Positions 3,715-10,262 of a stretch of DNA of 64,000 bases are shown here, piece by piece. The stretch lies in assembly GCF_014635665.1 (NCBI RefSeq), contig NZ_BMDG01000006.1:62001-126000 (forward strand), given 5' to 3'. This DNA is from Isoptericola cucumis (GTDB lineage: Bacteria > Actinomycetota > Actinomycetes > Actinomycetales > Cellulomonadaceae). A model generated the notes under the pieces. That model searched no databases, had not been told where the DNA came from, and worked only from the letters and a program-made list of their open reading frames with translations. Positions within the stretch are counted from its first letter, which is position 1, and each line of letters opens with the position of its first letter. The position numbers and the translations under genes were made by a program.

Positions 3715-5778
3715 ATGTCGACAGCCACCAACTCTTCAGGCAGCACCCGGGCGAACGCCCCCACGGGCCCGCTTCATCCCGACGCCATCCTCGAGGCGCT
3801 CGATCCCGAGCAGCGCGAGGTGGCGCTCGCGCTCACGGGGCCGGTCTGCGTCCTGGCGGGCGCGGGCACGGGCAAGACGCGCGCGATCACCCACCGCATC
3901 GCCTACGGGGTGCGCACGGGGACGTACAAGCCGACGTCGGTGCTCGCGGTCACGTTCACGGCCCGGGCGGCGGGGCAGATGCGCACGCGGCTGCGCGAGC
4001 TCGGCGTCGCCGGGGTGCAGGCGCGGACCTTCCACGCCGCCGCGCTGCGCCAGCTCGGCTACTTCTGGCCGCGGGTGGTGGGGGGTGCACCCCCGCGCAT
4101 CCTCGAGCACAAGGCGCCCGCCGTCGCCGAGGCCGCGCGACGCGTCGGGGCCAGCGTGGACCGGGTGGCCGTGCGCGACCTGTCCAGCGAGGTCGAGTGG
4201 GCCAAGGTGTCCCTGGTCACCGCCGAGGACTACGTCAAGGCCGCGCTCGCCGACGACCGGCCGGCGCCGTCGGGCTACGACCACCAGACCGTGGCGCGCC
4301 TCATCACGGCCTACGAGGACGTCAAGACGGAGCGGGGCGTCATCGACTTCGAGGACGTGCTCCTCATGCTGGCCGACATGCTCGCGGAGCACCGGCAGGT
4401 GTCCGACGAGGTCCGCTCGCAGTACCGGCACTTCGTCGTCGACGAGTACCAGGACGTCTCGCCCCTGCAGCAGTTCCTGCTCGACCAGTGGCTCGGCGGC
4501 CGCCAGGAGCTGTGCGTGGTGGGCGACCCGTCGCAGACCATCTACTCGTTCACGGGGGCGACGCCGCACTATCTGCTCGACTTCACGCGCACCCACCCGG
4601 GCACGCAGGTCGTGCGCCTCGTCCGCGACTACCGCTCGACGCCGCAGGTCGTGCACCTGGCGAACGAGGTGCTGCGGCGGGGGCGCGTCGTCGGGGCCCT
4701 CGAGCTGCAGGCACAGCGCCCTGCCGGGCCGCCGGTGAGCTTCACGACGTACGACGACGACGAGGCGGAGGCCAACGGCATCGCCGCCCGGGCCGCGCGC
4801 CTGATCCAGAGCGGCACGCGGGCCAGCGAGATCGCGGTCCTGTACCGCACGAACGCCCAGTCCGCGGCCTTCGAGTCGGCGCTGGCCGACGCCGGCGTCA
4901 GCTACCTGGTACGAGGCGGGGAGCGGTTCTTCCAGCGCAAGGACGTGCGCGACGCGATCGTCCTGCTGCGCGGGGCCGCGCGGTCCGCCGACCCCGACCA
5001 GCCGATGGGCGAGCAGGTGCGCGACGTCCTCACGTCCGCGGGCTGGTCGGAGAAGCCGCCGGCCGCCCGGGGCGCCGCCCGGGAGCGCTGGGAGGCGATG
5101 CAGGCGCTGGTCGCGCTCGCGGACGACGTGGCCGCCGCCGGGACTCCCGAGGCCCCGGCGACCACGGCCACGCTCGTGGCCGAGCTGGAGGAGCGCGCGT
5201 CGGCCCAGCACGCCCCCACGGTCGAGGGGGTGACCCTCGCGTCGCTGCACGCGGCCAAGGGGCTCGAGTGGGACGCGGTCTTCCTCGCCGGCGTGAGCGA
5301 GGGGCTCATGCCGATCTCGCTCGCGGAGACGGACGAGGGGGTGGCCGAGGAGCGCCGGCTCCTCTACGTCGGCGTCACCCGCGCCCGGGAGCACCTGGAG
5401 CTCTCGTTCGCCCGGGCCCGCAACCCCGGCGGCCGGGCCACGCGCAAGCGGACGCGCTTCCTGGACGGGCTGTGGCCCGACGAGCCGGCCGGCCGGGGCC
5501 GGTCGTCGCGGCCCGTGCGCGGGCAGGCCCGTCAGCGGCTGACCGGCGAGCACGACGTCCAGCTCTTCGACGCGCTGCGCGAGTGGCGCCTGTCCGTCGC
5601 GCGCGAGACCGACAAGCCGGCGTACACGGTCCTGGGGGACGCGACGCTCGCGGCCATCGCAGAGCTGCGGCCCTCCTCGGTGGCGCAGCTCGCCCGGATC
5701 AACGGCATCGGCCCGGCGAAGATCGACCGCTACGGCGCCACCATCCTGGCGATCGTGGGGGACGGGGCGGGCGGCTGA
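3715..5778 (+). CDS. uvrD2: Superfamily I DNA helicase UvrD2 with C-terminal HRDC domain
   Basis: A 687-residue 3'-5' helicase of the UvrD/Rep/PcrA class. Walker A is AGAGTGKT (residues 48-55), the DExx box is VDEYQDVSP (about 241-249), and later motifs include LVRDYRST, VTLASLHAAKGLEWD and VGVTRARE. Residues about 615-686 form an HRDC domain (LFDALREWRL...INGIGPAKIDRYG), a feature of UvrD2 and absent from UvrD1. The four-cysteine linker known in mycobacterial UvrD2 is not evident. It probably acts in DNA repair or replication-fork processing and is essential in M. tuberculosis. A GAGAAT hexamer 8 nt before ATG 3715 may be its -10. It is followed by the whiB7 control region. Confidence 0.93.
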   Translation: MSTATNSSGSTRANAPTGPLHPDAILEALDPEQREVALALTGPVCVLAGAGTGKTRAITHRIAYGVRTGTYKPTSVLAVTFTARAAGQMRTRLRELGVAGVQARTFHAAALRQLGYFWPRVVGGAPPRILEHKAPAVAEAARRVGASVDRVAVRDLSSEVEWAKVSLVTAEDYVKAALADDRPAPSGYDHQTVARLITAYEDVKTERGVIDFEDVLLMLADMLAEHRQVSDEVRSQYRHFVVDEYQDVSPLQQFLLDQWLGGRQELCVVGDPSQTIYSFTGATPHYLLDFTRTHPGTQVVRLVRDYRSTPQVVHLANEVLRRGRVVGALELQAQRPAGPPVSFTTYDDDEAEANGIAARAARLIQSGTRASEIAVLYRTNAQSAAFESALADAGVSYLVRGGERFFQRKDVRDAIVLLRGAARSADPDQPMGEQVRDVLTSAGWSEKPPAARGAARERWEAMQALVALADDVAAAGTPEAPATTATLVAELEERASAQHAPTVEGVTLASLHAAKGLEWDAVFLAGVSEGLMPISLAETDEGVAEERRLLYVGVTRAREHLELSFARARNPGGRATRKRTRFLDGLWPDEPAGRGRSSRPVRGQARQRLTGEHDVQLFDALREWRLSVARETDKPAYTVLGDATLAAIAELRPSSVAQLARINGIGPAKIDRYGATILAIVGDGAGG

Positions 5779-5854
5779 CGGTCCCGGACCGTCCCGGTGT
5801 GAGGGCGGTCGGAGCGGGCGGGATCCCGGCGAACGACGCCTCCGGGGGCCCGCG

Positions 5855-5916
5855 AAAAAATTGTCCGGAAAAAACTTCGAAAAAGAAGTGGCAGCCTCGC
5901 GGGCAGCGTCTATGCT
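5855..5916 (+). promoter_or_regulatory. Putative WhiB7-responsive promoter of whiB7
   Basis: Three A-rich blocks (5855-5860, 5869-5874, 5881-5887) interrupt very GC-rich DNA and lead straight into a candidate -35 (TGGCAG, 5889-5894). A 16-nt spacer and TATGCT (-10, 5911-5916) follow. WhiB7 with its AT-hook activates sigma-A promoters that carry an AT-rich stretch just upstream of the -35, including its own. The layout fits that model. The call is by pattern; no transcription start is known. Confidence 0.75.
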
Positions 5917-5992
5917 CTCTAGAGTCCGAGACGGAAGCGACGCGCGCCGAGAGGCGGAGCGTCCGAGAGCAGTGAGGAGGTGGGTGCACAAG

Positions 5993-6175
5993 ATGGACAC
6001 GATGAACACGATCGTGACGGCGAACGCGGCTATCAACGCTGCGCCGGGGTACAAGTCTGCCCTCGGCGTCGCGGTGACGGCTCTCGTCCCGTTCCGCGTG
6101 CGTCAGCACGCCGGGACCGGCAACGCCGATCTCCACATCGCACCCGACTCCGCCCCCTGGAGCCATCCGGTCTAG
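5993..6175 (+). CDS. 60-codon upstream ORF in the whiB7 leader (leader peptide)
   Basis: ATG at 5993 is preceded by a strong GAGGAGGTG ribosome site, and the frame runs 60 codons to TAG at 6173-6175. The product starts MDTMNTIVTANAAINAAPGY and matches no domain I know. The stop codon lies 11 nt before a strong terminator hairpin and 168 nt before whiB7. In mycobacteria and Streptomyces the whiB7/wblC leaders contain an upstream ORF and an intrinsic terminator that couple ribosome stress to read-through. The layout here makes the same role likely. A hairpin at 6086-6117 lies inside the ORF. It could also be a real small protein, but its position argues for regulation. Confidence 0.75.
   Translation: MDTMNTIVTANAAINAAPGYKSALGVAVTALVPFRVRQHAGTGNADLHIAPDSAPWSHPV
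6086..6117 (+). promoter_or_regulatory. RNA hairpin within the whiB7 leader ORF (candidate attenuator element)
   Basis: GTCCCG (6086-6091) pairs with CGGGAC (6112-6117), and GCGTGC (6096-6101) with GCACGC (6106-6111), around a GTCA loop. A translating ribosome would open it. Its 3' arm includes GGACCGG (6114-6120), which is complementary to CCGGTCC (6179-6185) directly before the terminator, and its CGGGAC could pair with GTCCC inside the terminator. This gives mutually exclusive pairings of the classical attenuator kind. Structure is inferred by eye. Confidence 0.5.
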
Positions 6176-6186
6176 AAACCGGTCCA

Positions 6187-6223
6187 GGCCGCGGAGTCCC
6201 CCGGGACCCGCGGCCTTCGTCTT
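6187..6223 (+). terminator. Intrinsic terminator (attenuator) between leader ORF and whiB7
   Basis: GGCCGCGG (6187-6194) pairs with CCGCGGCC (6208-6215), extended inward by GTCCC/GGGAC with one bulged A. The hairpin is followed by TTCGTCTTT. It stands between the leader ORF stop and the whiB7 start, so it should stop basal transcription before whiB7. Confidence 0.8.
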
Positions 6224-6343
6224 TCCGCCCAGGGAAGAAGACCTCATCAAGGTCGTACGAATCGGCTCTCTGACTCCAGAGGGCCACCCGCAGGTCCTGA
6301 ACACCGACGTTCACACCACACCAAGGACCTGACGGAGGACATC

Positions 6344-6715
6344 GTGCGTCTCGCACAGCTGTTGGACGAGCGGCTGCTCGACACGATCCCCCAGGGCGGC
6401 TCCGGCCCCTGGACACCCCATCAACCCCTCACGCAGAGCGCGGCCGAAGCGGCCGAGCTCGACCAGCAGTTCAGCGCACTGCTGCCCTGCCGCACCAACG
6501 ACCCCGAGCTGTGGTTCGCCGAGCACACGGCCCAGGTCGAGCAGGCCAAGGCGCTGTGCCGCACCTGCCCGCTCCAGGCGGGCTGCCTCTCCGGCGCCCT
6601 GGACCGCCAGGAGCCCTGGGGCGTGTGGGGCGGTGAGGTCTTCGTCGACGGAAAGGTCGTCGCCCGCAAGCGCGGTCGCGGCCGGCCCCGGAAGTCGGAG
6701 ACCGCCGCAGCATGA
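6344..6715 (+). CDS. whiB7: WhiB7 iron-sulfur transcriptional activator (intrinsic antibiotic resistance)
   Basis: A 123-residue WhiB protein. Four cysteines for the [4Fe-4S] cluster are Cys49, Cys72, Cys75 and Cys81, followed by the turn GVWGG (93-97) that contacts sigma-A. The C-terminus carries an AT-hook, RGRGRPRK (110-117), which separates WhiB7 from other WhiB proteins. In mycobacteria and streptomycetes WhiB7/WblC is induced by ribosome-targeting antibiotics and activates efflux, methylase and redox genes as well as itself. GTG at 6344 has a GGAGG ribosome site. Gene order (uvrD2 upstream, E1-like protein downstream) agrees with the mycobacterial locus. The long leader with AT-rich promoter, ORF and terminator supports the assignment independently. 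Confidence 0.96.
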   Translation: MRLAQLLDERLLDTIPQGGSGPWTPHQPLTQSAAEAAELDQQFSALLPCRTNDPELWFAEHTAQVEQAKALCRTCPLQAGCLSGALDRQEPWGVWGGEVFVDGKVVARKRGRGRPRKSETAAA

Positions 6716-6750
6716 CCGCGACGCGCACCCCGGTGCGTCGACGCGGACCA

Positions 6751-6823
6751 CGAGACGCCGAGATGGATCGGCCGTCCGACCTCTCACGACGAGGGGTCGA
6801 CGGCGTTCCACCTCGGCGTCTCG
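6751..6823. terminator. Long inverted repeat between convergent whiB7 and ThiF-like gene
   Basis: CGAGACGCCGAG (6751-6762) and CTCGGCGTCTCG (6812-6823) are perfect complements. The stem extends inward to 16 bp with one G-U pair, and the 41-nt interior can fold again (GACC/GGTC). There is no T tract. It is probably a bidirectional transcription barrier for the convergent pair. Confidence 0.55.
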
Positions 6824-6890
6824 TCGTCGTTCGGGCCCCTGCGGGACGGCGTGCCCCCGGGAGGTCAGGGGTCCGTCGGGATCCGGCGGC

Positions 6891-8027
6891 CTATCGCGGC
6901 ACCCGGGTGCAGCCGCAGCCCGGGTGGGGTACGACCGGGCGCAGCCGTGGCACCGCCTCGGGCAGCGCGACCTCCAGCACCTGTCCGGCCGTGACCGGCC
7001 GGGAGCCGTCGAGGTGGGCGAGCACCTGCCCGGCCGCGAGGGCGGCGGCGCACGCGGAGAGCGTCGTCTCCTGGGGTGCCGTGCGCAGGGCCCGCAGGGA
7101 CCGGGCCACGAGCGGCCAGCGTTCGTCCGCGTCGGCCGCGTACCGCTCGGCACACCCCACGCACGCCGAGATCCCCGGCAGCACGAACGGCCCGAGCGTG
7201 ACGTCCGCCTCCCGCACGACCACCGGCAGGTGGGCGACGCCCGCCCCGAGCAGCCGCTCGTAGCCCGCCGGGTCGGCCGCGTGCGACTCGACCACCACGA
7301 CCACGTCCGGGGGAGCGCCGTCGTCCTCCGCGCCCCGCACCAGCGCCCGGGGGTGCCGGGCGCGCAACCGTCCCGCCAGCGCGCGCTGGCGGAGGTGGCC
7401 GACGTCGTCCTGCTCGTAGCCGCCGGCGCCCAGGTCGGCGACCTGGACCGGCGAACGGTCGTCGAGCACCAGCGTCCCGACGCCCGCCGTGGCGAGGTGG
7501 CCGGCCAGCGCGGCGCCGATGCGGCCCAGTCCGCTGAGGCCGACGGCCCGTGTGCCGCGCGCGGACAGGGTCGCCCCGCCGGCGTCGTCGGGCCGGAGGG
7601 CGCCGAGCACCGCGGCGTCGTCGGCACGGGTGGGGAACCGGCCGCTGCCGGGGCCGACGCGCACGAGGCAGCCGCACCGCACGAGCAGGTCCTCGAGCTG
7701 GAAGCGTCGCTCGGCGCTCACACCGCGCCGGTGCGCGGACCGCGCGAGGTCGTGGTGGCGCCGGACGCGGGCGTCGCACAGCCAGCCGACCTCGGCGGGT
7801 GACAGCCCGGTGAGCACGACGCTCCACCGCGGGTCGAGACCGAGCTGCACCTCGCCGCCACCCCGGTCGACGACGGGCGTCCCGGTGCGCCACCGCAGCG
7901 CGGCGTGCGAGCCCGCTGCCGGGGTCGTGGCTGCCTCCGGCGTGGTGGCCCGGGTCGTGGCCGCCTGGTGCGTGGCCGCCTGGTGCGTGGTGGGCAAGGA
8001 TGCGGCGGGGGAGCTGCCGGGTGCCAT
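6891..8027 (-). CDS. ThiF/E1-like protein, TOMM-type leader-peptide-binding family
   Basis: A 378-residue protein. The middle and C-terminal parts resemble the E1/ThiF/MoeB adenylyltransferase fold: a nucleotide loop VGLSGLGRIGAALAGHL, then LVLDDRSPVQVADLGAGGY. A CVGC pair and a terminal CGC may bind zinc as in E1 enzymes. The N-terminal half (DPRWSVVLTGLSPAEVGWL...) resembles the peptide-binding wing of azole-peptide cyclodehydratases, and the mycobacterial gene at this syntenic place (Rv3196) belongs to that family. No YcaO partner or precursor peptide is visible. The extreme N-terminus has short Ala/Thr/His/Gln repeats from a 15-bp tandem duplication at 7957-7986. ATG at 8025-8027 has AAGGTGG upstream; GTG at 8034-8036 is an alternative. 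Confidence 0.7.
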   Translation of the reverse strand: MAPGSSPAASLPTTHQAATHQAATTRATTPEAATTPAAGSHAALRWRTGTPVVDRGGGEVQLGLDPRWSVVLTGLSPAEVGWLCDARVRRHHDLARSAHRRGVSAERRFQLEDLLVRCGCLVRVGPGSGRFPTRADDAAVLGALRPDDAGGATLSARGTRAVGLSGLGRIGAALAGHLATAGVGTLVLDDRSPVQVADLGAGGYEQDDVGHLRQRALAGRLRARHPRALVRGAEDDGAPPDVVVVVESHAADPAGYERLLGAGVAHLPVVVREADVTLGPFVLPGISACVGCAERYAADADERWPLVARSLRALRTAPQETTLSACAAALAAGQVLAHLDGSRPVTAGQVLEVALPEAVPRLRPVVPHPGCGCTRVPR

Positions 8028-8156
8028 GCCGGCCACCTTGGCACGCCGACGGGCGCGCCGTCGGGCGTCGTCCACAGGCCACCGAACGGCGCCGTGACCG
8101 CCGGGGACGGTGTGTCTCACCGCACAAACATGACGAATCCCCGGTACGGTCGTGCC

Positions 8157-8699
8157 GTGGCCCACGACACGATGGCGTCGGTGGAGGTCCGACGAAGCCG
8201 TCGACGGACCGCCACGGTGAGCGCCTACCGCGACGGCGATCGCACCGTCGTGGCCATCCCCGCGCGCTTCTCGCGCGCCCAGGAGCGCGAGTGGGTGGCC
8301 AAGATGGTCGCCCGGCTCGAGGACAAGGAACGCCGCCGGCGGCCCTCGGACTCCCAGCTGATGGAGCGCGCCCGCGAGCTGTCGGCCAAGTACCTGGACG
8401 GCAAGGCCCACCCGACCAGCGTGTCCTGGTCCCCCCACCAGGGCCGGCGCTGGGGGTCGTGCACCCTCGTGGACGGCTCGATCCGGATCTCGACCCGGGT
8501 GCAGGGCATGCCCGAGTGGGTGCTCGACTACGTGCTCCTGCACGAGCTCGCGCACCTGCTGCACGCCGGCCACGGCCCGGACTTCTGGCGCCTGCTCGAG
8601 GCGTATCCGCGCACCGAGCGTGCCCGCGGGTTCCTCGAGGGCGTCGCGTTCGTCCGCGACGACGCTGCCGGGAACCCGCCGCCGGCCGACGACGACTGA
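8157..8699 (+). CDS. YgjP/DUF45-family zinc metallopeptidase (M48-like)
   Basis: A 180-residue protein with the SprT/YgjP-like zinc site HELAHLLHAGH (His129-Glu-x-x-His133, further His downstream) and the family stretch WGSCTLVDGSIRIS about 25 residues earlier. Proteins of this family are predicted cytoplasmic metal-dependent hydrolases of unknown substrate; E. coli YgjP is a homologue. I choose GTG 8157 because TACGGT lies exactly 6 nt before it (8145-8150), the same layout as nudC. An in-frame ATG at 8130 would add nine residues but lacks a ribosome site and would fall upstream of that -10. It is divergent from the ThiF-like gene. Confidence 0.8.
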   Translation: MAHDTMASVEVRRSRRRTATVSAYRDGDRTVVAIPARFSRAQEREWVAKMVARLEDKERRRRPSDSQLMERARELSAKYLDGKAHPTSVSWSPHQGRRWGSCTLVDGSIRISTRVQGMPEWVLDYVLLHELAHLLHAGHGPDFWRLLEAYPRTERARGFLEGVAFVRDDAAGNPPPADDD

Positions 8700-8720
8700 G
8701 CCGGCCGGCAGCGCGACCCG

Positions 8721-10262
8721 TCAGCCTGCGGGTGTGCCGCCCCCGCGGGGGCCGTCGTCGCCGTCCTCGGGCGCCTGCGGGTCGTCGTCAGGCGCTCCGG
8801 CCGCCGGCCCCTGCTCCTGTCCCTGCACTTGCTCCTGGTCCTCGTCGGATTCCGCCGCGTCGAAGATCTGCGCCAGCGCCGCGTCGACGTCGGACTGCTC
8901 CTGGGCCTGGGCGGCGCGCCGGGTGTGGTAGCCGGCGGGGTCGTCGAGGTCCGCGTCGTCGGGGAGCAGGTCGGGGTGCTGCCACACGGCGTCGCGCGCC
9001 TCGGGGCCGCCCTCGGCGAGGAGGTGGGCGAAGAGCGCGGTCGCCTCGCGGGACCGGCGCGGGCGCAGCTCGAGCCCGACGAGGGTGGCGAAGGTGTGCT
9101 CGGCGGGCCCGCCGGCGGCGCGCCGCCGGCGGATCATCTCGCGCAGCGGGTAGGTGTGCGGCAGGTGGGGGAGCGCCGCGGTTGCCGCGACCTCGGTGAC
9201 CCACCCCTCGACCAGGGCGAGCGCCGTCTCGAGCCGCAGCAGCGTCGCCTCCTGCTCGGGGGTGTGCTGCAGGCCGAACACGCCACCGGTGAGGGCGCCG
9301 CGCAGGGCGTCCGGGTCGCTCATGTCGATGTCGCGCACCTGCTGCTCGAGCATGTCGATGTCGATGGTGATCCCGCGCGCGTACGACTCGACCAGGGCGT
9401 GCAGGTGGGCGGGCAGCCACGGCACGTGGGCGAACAGCCGTGCGTGCGCCGCCTCGCGCAGCGCGAGGAAGTGGCGGACCTCCTCCGGCGGGGCGTCGAG
9501 CCCCTCGGCGAAGGCGGCGACGTTGGTCGGCAGCAGGACGGTCGCGGGCCCGGTGAGCAGCGGGACGCCGACGTCGGTGGCGCCGAACACCTCCCGGGAG
9601 AGCGTCCCGGCGGCCTGCCCCACCTGCATGCCGAAGACGGCCGAGCCGAGCCGGCGCATCATCTCCGAGGGGTCGAGGCCGCTGCCGAGCGCCCCGACGG
9701 GCAGCCCGGGCACCGCGGGCATCCCGCTCCCCGACAGGTCCTCGGGGAGCTGGTCGCGCAGCACGGTGGCGAGGGCCTCGGCCACGGAGGTGGCCACCGG
9801 GGCCACGAGGCCGTGCCACGCGGGCAGCGTCGCCTCCACCCACTCCGACCGGCTCCACGCGTGCTTCGGGCCGCCGGCCGGCGGAAGGTCGGTGACGGCG
9901 TCGAGCCACAGCTCGGCCACGCCGAGCGCGTCGGTGGCGGCCTTCGCCTGACCGCCCGTCAGCGACGGGTCGCCCTCGGCCACCGCGACCTGGCGGGCGA
10001 CGTCGTGCGCGACGTCGGCGTTCACCGGGCCGTCGCCGGAGGAGGAGAGCAGCCGCTGCACCTGGGCCAGCACCGCCTGCATGGTGGCGGGGTCGGGCGC
10101 GCCGGCGCCGGGCACCCCGGCGAGCGCGGCCGGGTCGATGCCCTGCGCGCGCATCTGGGCCAGCACCTCGTCGGTCCGGTCTCCGAAGAACCCCTCGAGC
10201 ATGGAGCGCAGCATGCGCTCCCGCTCCTCGGCGCCCTCGGGGTCGTCGGGCAGGTTGCTCAT
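8721..10262 (-). CDS. Zinc-dependent metalloprotease family protein (DUF2342/zincin-like)
   Basis: A 513-residue protein of the actinobacterial DUF2342 family, the Rv3195 equivalent. The signature is FLALREAAHARLFAHVPWL, where REAAH replaces a classical HExxH, and SYARGITIDIDMLEQQ follows. The N-terminal part is helical and the last 90 residues are low-complexity acidic/Gln-rich (DEDQEQVQGQEQ). Families of this kind are annotated as zincin-like hydrolases, but no substrate is established. ATG at 10260-10262 lies behind GAGGAGCAC on the coding strand. It is divergent from the PDZ-Lon gene, as in mycobacteria. Protease activity is a family-level prediction only. Confidence 0.82.
   Translation of the reverse strand: MSNLPDDPEGAEERERMLRSMLEGFFGDRTDEVLAQMRAQGIDPAALAGVPGAGAPDPATMQAVLAQVQRLLSSSGDGPVNADVAHDVARQVAVAEGDPSLTGGQAKAATDALGVAELWLDAVTDLPPAGGPKHAWSRSEWVEATLPAWHGLVAPVATSVAEALATVLRDQLPEDLSGSGMPAVPGLPVGALGSGLDPSEMMRRLGSAVFGMQVGQAAGTLSREVFGATDVGVPLLTGPATVLLPTNVAAFAEGLDAPPEEVRHFLALREAAHARLFAHVPWLPAHLHALVESYARGITIDIDMLEQQVRDIDMSDPDALRGALTGGVFGLQHTPEQEATLLRLETALALVEGWVTEVAATAALPHLPHTYPLREMIRRRRAAGGPAEHTFATLVGLELRPRRSREATALFAHLLAEGGPEARDAVWQHPDLLPDDADLDDPAGYHTRRAAQAQEQSDVDAALAQIFDAAESDEDQEQVQGQEQGPAAGAPDDDPQAPEDGDDGPRGGGTPAG

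Follow-up and report, generated by a model that had tools for sequence, protein, structure and literature searches.

A putative ribosome-sensing attenuator with a conserved antiterminator upstream of whiB7 in Isoptericola cucumis

What does the leader in front of whiB7 in Isoptericola cucumis do, and by which base pairings could it decide whether transcription enters the gene? We addressed this question in a stretch of 64,000 nucleotides (the window; positions 62001-126000 of contig C6) from the 4.46 Mb genome of this soil bacterium, whose family also holds Cellulosimicrobium, Oerskovia and Promicromonospora. A preliminary description had proposed a switch in which an upstream ORF (uORF), a terminator and an antiterminator follow an AT-rich promoter. 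Judged by its sequence, the leader belongs, with a probability of about 0.92, to the known whiB7/wblC transcription attenuators, which sense ribosomes. Its parts are present and conserved, and its pairings are mutually exclusive. The leader and the gene comprise:

5855-5916, + strand: AT-rich element with the -35-like sequence GTGGCA (5888-5893), a 17-nt spacer and the -10-like sequence TATGCT (5911-5916)
5976-5982, + strand: Shine-Dalgarno sequence of the leader ORF, GGAGGTG, which is conserved across the genus alignment
5993-6175, + strand: leader ORF of 60 codons, with its TAG stop at 6173-6175
6086-6117, + strand: hairpin within the ORF, stable in the window, with all its pairs formed in 2/19 aligned leaders
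6146-6153, + strand: 5' arm of the antiterminator outer helix, GACTCCGC, inside the ORF; partner 6191-6198
6156-6161, + strand: 5' arm of the antiterminator middle helix, CCTGGA; partner TCCAGG at 6183-6188
6167-6182, + strand: antiterminator apical hairpin, CCGGT(CTAGAA)ACCGG, whose loop holds the ORF stop codon
6187-6215, + strand: intrinsic terminator hairpin, whose 5'-arm bases 6191-6198 are the 3' partner of the antiterminator
6344-6715, + strand: whiB7, 123 aa, GTG start, WhiB domain, C-terminal RGRGRPRK

The gene behind this leader begins at 6344, where the preliminary description had put the start of whiB7, and its product matches the Pfam WhiB domain (E 2.5e-16, 60.4 bits). Four cysteines, C49, C72, C75 and C81, are invariant in an alignment of five WhiB7 sequences including that of the window; we take four cysteines to be the mark of a WhiB domain, and the window protein has them. 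The C-terminal RGRGRPRK is also invariant among the five aligned sequences and contains the AT-hook RGRP, which we take to be the motif of the WhiB7 family. A search of the protein against NCBIfam at E 0.001 returned no family match, and Pfam gave the general WhiB domain only. The best named relatives are the proteins of Isoptericola luteus (95%) and Krasilnikoviella flava (93%), a list from which records of the window's own genome were possibly omitted. Upstream of whiB7, a helicase with UvrD and HRDC domains (Pfam) is encoded at 3715-5778, and this neighbour presumably matches the arrangement in M. tuberculosis, where uvrD2 adjoins whiB7. At E 1e-20, 142 of 150 family genomes, counting that of the window, gave a WhiB7 match, and these cover 25/25 genera.

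Directly after whiB7 lies a long imperfect inverted repeat (6746-6828; 80% identity with its reverse complement), which is possibly the terminator of the gene. The stretch 6716-6850 that contains the repeat folds with -86.9 kcal/mol (z -5.2). With 40 candidates scored in each genome, the rest of this genome and 2 of 17 relatives yielded only short partial matches to the repeat.

Out of the 142 genomes with a WhiB7 match, 130 upstream regions were sampled, and a terminator was found in 123 of them, from 23 genera (Isoptericola and 22 related ones). In the window, the strong terminator that had been placed at 6187-6215 was confirmed: the fold of 6186-6216 has -25.9 kcal/mol, matched by none of 200 shuffled sequences, and the hairpin begins 11 nt past the uORF stop. 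Its stem is bulged and its U-tract, TTCGTCTTT, is imperfect and broken; an automatic terminator scan of the leader called no standard terminator. For an alignment of 86 leaders, drawn from the 123 by dropping identical rows and keeping no more than five from any genus other than that of the window, the terminator pairing is kept in 95.9% of cells, and five of its pairs have changed on both sides, a number that no shuffle reached.

The seven regions with no recognised terminator are all six g25 leaders fetched and the sole g5 leader, L133. In L133 a weaker GGCCG...CGGCC stem before TTTTCC is visible by eye, which we excluded from the count. The g25 leaders (L107, L112, L118, L123, L124 and L125) still have a promoter-like sequence and, after a ribosome site, an ATG, and because all six are without a terminator by the rule used, the switch may work another way in this genus.

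At the 5' end of the leader, the A-rich sequence that had been noticed beside a -35/-10 pair is indeed present, as GTGGCA(17)TATGCT at 5888-5916. By a simple rule, the arrangement of an AT-rich stretch, a -35-like sequence and TANNNT was found in 92 of the 123 leaders. A generic scan for the sigma-70 consensus detected no promoter at the leader. When the genome was searched for other WhiB7-type promoters, one pattern matched nothing, missing that of whiB7 too, and the sole match of a second pattern was the whiB7 promoter itself. A hairpin with a GAGA loop (5939-5963, loop 5949-5952) precedes the ribosome site of the uORF, and a comparison of 19 leaders shows several of its base pairs altered at both positions.

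The 60-codon ORF at 5993-6175 stands as it had been described, with a strong ribosome site (GGAGG at 5976-5980). A candidate uORF was picked in all 123 leaders that have a terminator, by a permissive picker some of whose picks are doubtful, e.g., in g14. Its stop codon lies 10-28 nt upstream of the terminator in 119 of the 123, the exceptions being L128, L129, L130 and L131. Within the genus, divergence at codon positions 1/2/3 is 0.33/0.38/0.44 before the ORF tail and 0.24/0.21/0.22 within it; this signature of coding is weak and gives slight support for translation of the candidate uORF. Alanine accounts for 15.4% of residues in the uORF peptides of the genus. The peptide had been thought undescribed, and it has no match in Pfam or NCBIfam at E 0.001; as an element of whiB7 leaders, however, the uORF is already published. 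The hairpin reported inside the ORF at 6086-6117 also exists (-20.2 kcal/mol; 0/200 shuffles as good). We rejected it as a conserved part of the leader, as it is full in 2 of the 19 aligned leaders and has at least 10 of its 12 pairs in 5.

In 16 sequences of the genus, few stretches are as well conserved as the tail of the ORF and the terminator, and it is here that the antiterminator would form. The sequence GACTCCGC (6146-6153) is exactly complementary to GCGGAGTC (6191-6198) in the 5' arm of the terminator, and the antiterminator and terminator pairings, which share 6191-6198, are mutually exclusive. The antiterminator of the window folds with -32.7 kcal/mol (z -5.8, 1/200 shuffles as good), compared with -25.9 for the terminator. 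Of the 19 aligned leaders, that of the window among them, 17 have the whole outer helix, 18 the whole middle helix and 13 the whole apical hairpin, the last judged by alignment column. As for known RNA families, we dropped the leader as a member of any Rfam family: a covariance-model search of 4000-9000 gave nothing above the gathering score and three sub-threshold matches (up to E 5).

These pairings suggest how the leader could work as an attenuator, and we infer uORF translation, termination, read-through, drug response and autoactivation. RNA polymerase would start just 5' of the leader ORF. Ribosomes that translate the ORF to its stop would cover the tail (6146-6175) and block the antiterminator; the terminator at 6187-6215 would then form and transcription would stop before whiB7. 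An early stall in the ORF or a failed initiation, caused by antibiotics or a shortage of charged tRNA, would leave 6146-6171 free to capture 6178-6198, and the loss of the terminator's 5' arm would permit read-through into whiB7. The WhiB7 protein would then boost its own AT-rich promoter.

It seems quite unlikely that the leader peptide is instead an arrest peptide, in which specific residues together with a drug in the exit tunnel would stall the ribosome at one codon. Such stalling in a uORF, promoted by antibiotics, controls erm genes according to a partial text of PMC4128351, and a PDSAP-like C-terminal tail (D-S-A/V-P) recurs in many of the picked peptides. However, the picked peptides have 29-97 residues and widely variable sequences, and the codons of the recurring tail are the very bases that form the antiterminator. 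Because the uORF peptide varies so widely, the position of the ribosome, rather than an arrest sequence, is probably what is sensed.

A constitutive terminator, with the promoter alone setting the level of whiB7 and the antiterminator being a by-product of G+C-rich sequence, is very improbable. In its favour, the outer helix alone is unexceptional in a sequence so rich in G+C: for the 8-base complement by itself p is 0.07 in the window, and among the 123 leaders only 19 have a best complement with p ≤0.05. The full antiterminator, in contrast, with its z of -5.8 in the window, has a mean z of -3.2 against shuffled upstream sequence over the 123 leaders and lies below -1 in 119 of them. In 123/123 leaders the ORF tail together with the terminator 5' arm folds more stably than the terminator does, a comparison of energies that is partly length-driven and in which the z-score alone discriminates. 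At least 7 bases of the terminator arm pair upstream in 121 of the 123 (mean 10.3 observed vs 9.1 shuffled); in L128 the arm is unpaired within the stretch folded, and in L131 only 5 arm bases are paired. Also against a constitutive terminator, the outer helix is paired in 95.2% of cells in the 86 leaders vs 30-49% in slid registers, and the uORF stop keeps its distance of 10-28 nt in the 119 leaders mentioned above. Two of the eight outer-helix pairs are changed on both sides, a number reached by 71 of 500 shuffles, which suggests that covariation of this helix within the family is modest; its covariation score is reached by 0/500. Conservation is the main evidence for the antiterminator pairing of the predicted attenuator.

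The switch can hardly be the pairing of GGACCGG (6114-6120) with CCGGTCC (6179-6185), with GTCCC and GGGAC exchanging partners, and we reject it as the antiterminator: the two segments are complementary in the window and keep at least 5 of 7 pairs in 13 of the 19 leaders, but all 7 pairs in only 2/19, as few as are complete for the hairpin at 6086-6117 and compared with 17/19 and 18/19 for the competing outer (6146-6153 with 6191-6198) and middle helices. What the preliminary description had said of the class of switch behind the AT-rich promoter is right and strongly conserved; the specific swap that it had drawn is not conserved.

For the attenuator with the antiterminator at 6146-6198, leaders of other families were also folded. 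Among 18 analysed, the fold of the arm with the ORF tail was at least as stable as the terminator in 14 (a tie in L142); L144 and L151 gave no such fold, and the wrong hairpin was picked in L146 and L150. The stem letters in these leaders differ yet match, e.g., CCGCGGAA with TTCCGTGG. A held-out set from other families of the order comprised 40 leaders, of which 17 had no terminator by a strict rule and 4 more were unusable; the antiterminator was more stable in 18 of the 19 analysable leaders. As a separate observation, in the g8 leaders L054, L058-L065 and L067, GGACTCCGT occurs within the uORF, 103-107 nt before the terminator, and could pair with the terminator 5' arm.

Between the terminator and whiB7, three further segments concern the ribosome site of the gene:

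6203-6213, + strand: TT3, the terminator 3' arm GGGACCCGCGG, complementary to 6288-6298 with one mismatch
6288-6299, + strand: S5, CCGCAGGTCCTG, complementary to TT3 and at the same time the 5' arm of a hairpin before the whiB7 ribosome site
6324-6335, + strand: S3, AGGACCTGACGG, the pairing partner of S5; its bases 6334-6335 are also the first two of the whiB7 Shine-Dalgarno sequence (6334-6338)

Read from the sequence, S5 and TT3 pair over 11 positions with one mismatch and one G-U pair, and the S5/S3 hairpin touches the whiB7 Shine-Dalgarno sequence (z -2.5, 3/200 shuffles as good). Two other hairpins, at 6240-6254 and 6264-6285, lie between the terminator and S5, with one double-changed pair each (in 8/19 and 5/19 sequences).

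In 39 representatives from 21 genera of the family, the complement of the 3' arm had a mean z of 1.59, vs -0.26 for the 5'-arm control, and it ended 36-56 nt before whiB7 in 30 of the 39, vs 9.1 expected. When the arms were swapped among these 39 leaders, 0/5000 permutations reached the observed mean, one representative per genus gave a mean p of 0.005 over 20 draws (worst 0.016), and with 17 distant leaders added 0/2000 permutations reached the observed value and the own arm beat the mean of exchanged arms in 34/56, figures that are optimistic, as related genomes are non-independent. Of 121 leaders (L131 and L132, where the start rule found no ribosome site, are excluded), 34 had a duplex energy of the terminator 3' arm with the region downstream that reached p 0.05; the mean z was -1.4, and p for the window was 0.086. 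When S5 was blocked in silico, the predicted exposure of the whiB7 Shine-Dalgarno sequence rose in 52 of 137 leaders and fell in 23, in each case by more than 0.05; for the window it was unchanged (0.42 to 0.40). S5 ranked first among the segments to block in 18 of the 137, vs 7.5 expected.

On the held-out leaders, with two criteria fixed beforehand, the 3'-arm complement again exceeded the 5'-arm control (mean z 0.88 vs 0.08); the 3' arm was ahead in 12/19, and the effect was carried mainly by family f83. The position of the complement was not replicated (4/19 vs 4.1 expected). In L215 and L219, both of f83, an 11-base perfect complement of the terminator 3' arm follows shortly after the terminator, not near whiB7. 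Taken together, these comparisons support an S5 element within the family of the window, not as a general rule.

In a model that goes beyond a two-hairpin attenuator, the leader could be a five-segment relay, in which the antiterminator would free 6203-6213, which would then take S5 from the S3 hairpin. We consider this idea tentative and rather doubtful; the duplex energies, the exposure predictions and the position in the held-out leaders speak against it. If it were true, one stalled ribosome would permit transcription and also open the translation of whiB7, and recovered translation on existing mRNA would close whiB7 again. If S5, which co-varies with the terminator 3' arm within the family, is functional, one sensor would control whiB7 twice, which would bear on how fast the intrinsic antibiotic response is turned on and off.

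How does this leader compare with known systems? Partial texts of a review (PMC11550727), of a review on intrinsic resistance (PMC9618640) and of PMC13236596 describe the control of whiB7/wblC by a uORF, a terminator and an antiterminator with the same ribosome logic, and citing papers, in the portions consulted, credit the attenuator of Mycobacterium and Streptomyces to Lee, Lee and Roe 2022. An early account of the uORF and terminator in mycobacteria is that of Dinan 2014 (PMC4128351, in part of its text). In the sections covered, PMC13236596 (2026, M. tuberculosis) reports that uORF stalling induces whiB7, and PMC12121999 states that a drug-induced stall inside the uORF was previously untested. 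As far as these partial accounts go, the whiB7/wblC attenuator resembles the leader described here in having a uORF behind a Shine-Dalgarno sequence, a terminator just after it, a competing antiterminator and whiB7 downstream. The present leader differs from that of Mycobacterium and Streptomyces in the letters of the stems and in the peptide, and in the S5 segment, which goes unmentioned in the accounts as far as covered. S5 is possibly a new feature; no description of it was found in a partial survey of the whiB7-leader literature that excludes the primary paper, and we do not claim that it is unpublished.

The attenuators of ABCF resistance genes (VmlR, LmrC and others), in a partial account (PMC12421871), share the principle that a drug-stalled ribosome on a leader ORF favours an antiterminator; they differ in the downstream gene, and the likeness is one of description, leader sequences aside. 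Amino-acid attenuators such as that of ilvBNC, as far as their description was covered, share two exclusive hairpins that are read by the position of the ribosome. The trp attenuator is the classical attenuator of this kind, in which ribosome position chooses between exclusive hairpins. The present leader differs from the amino-acid attenuators in that no codon run of a single amino acid was seen when the window peptide was inspected.

A literature search for Isoptericola together with whiB7 returned no paper naming both. This type of switch is already known, in mycobacteria and Streptomyces; here it is found in Isoptericola with a corrected antiterminator. Explicit pairings are given for the putative ribosome-sensing switch of whiB7 in Isoptericola and in 22 genera related to it, and a precise, testable antiterminator replaces the version first proposed.
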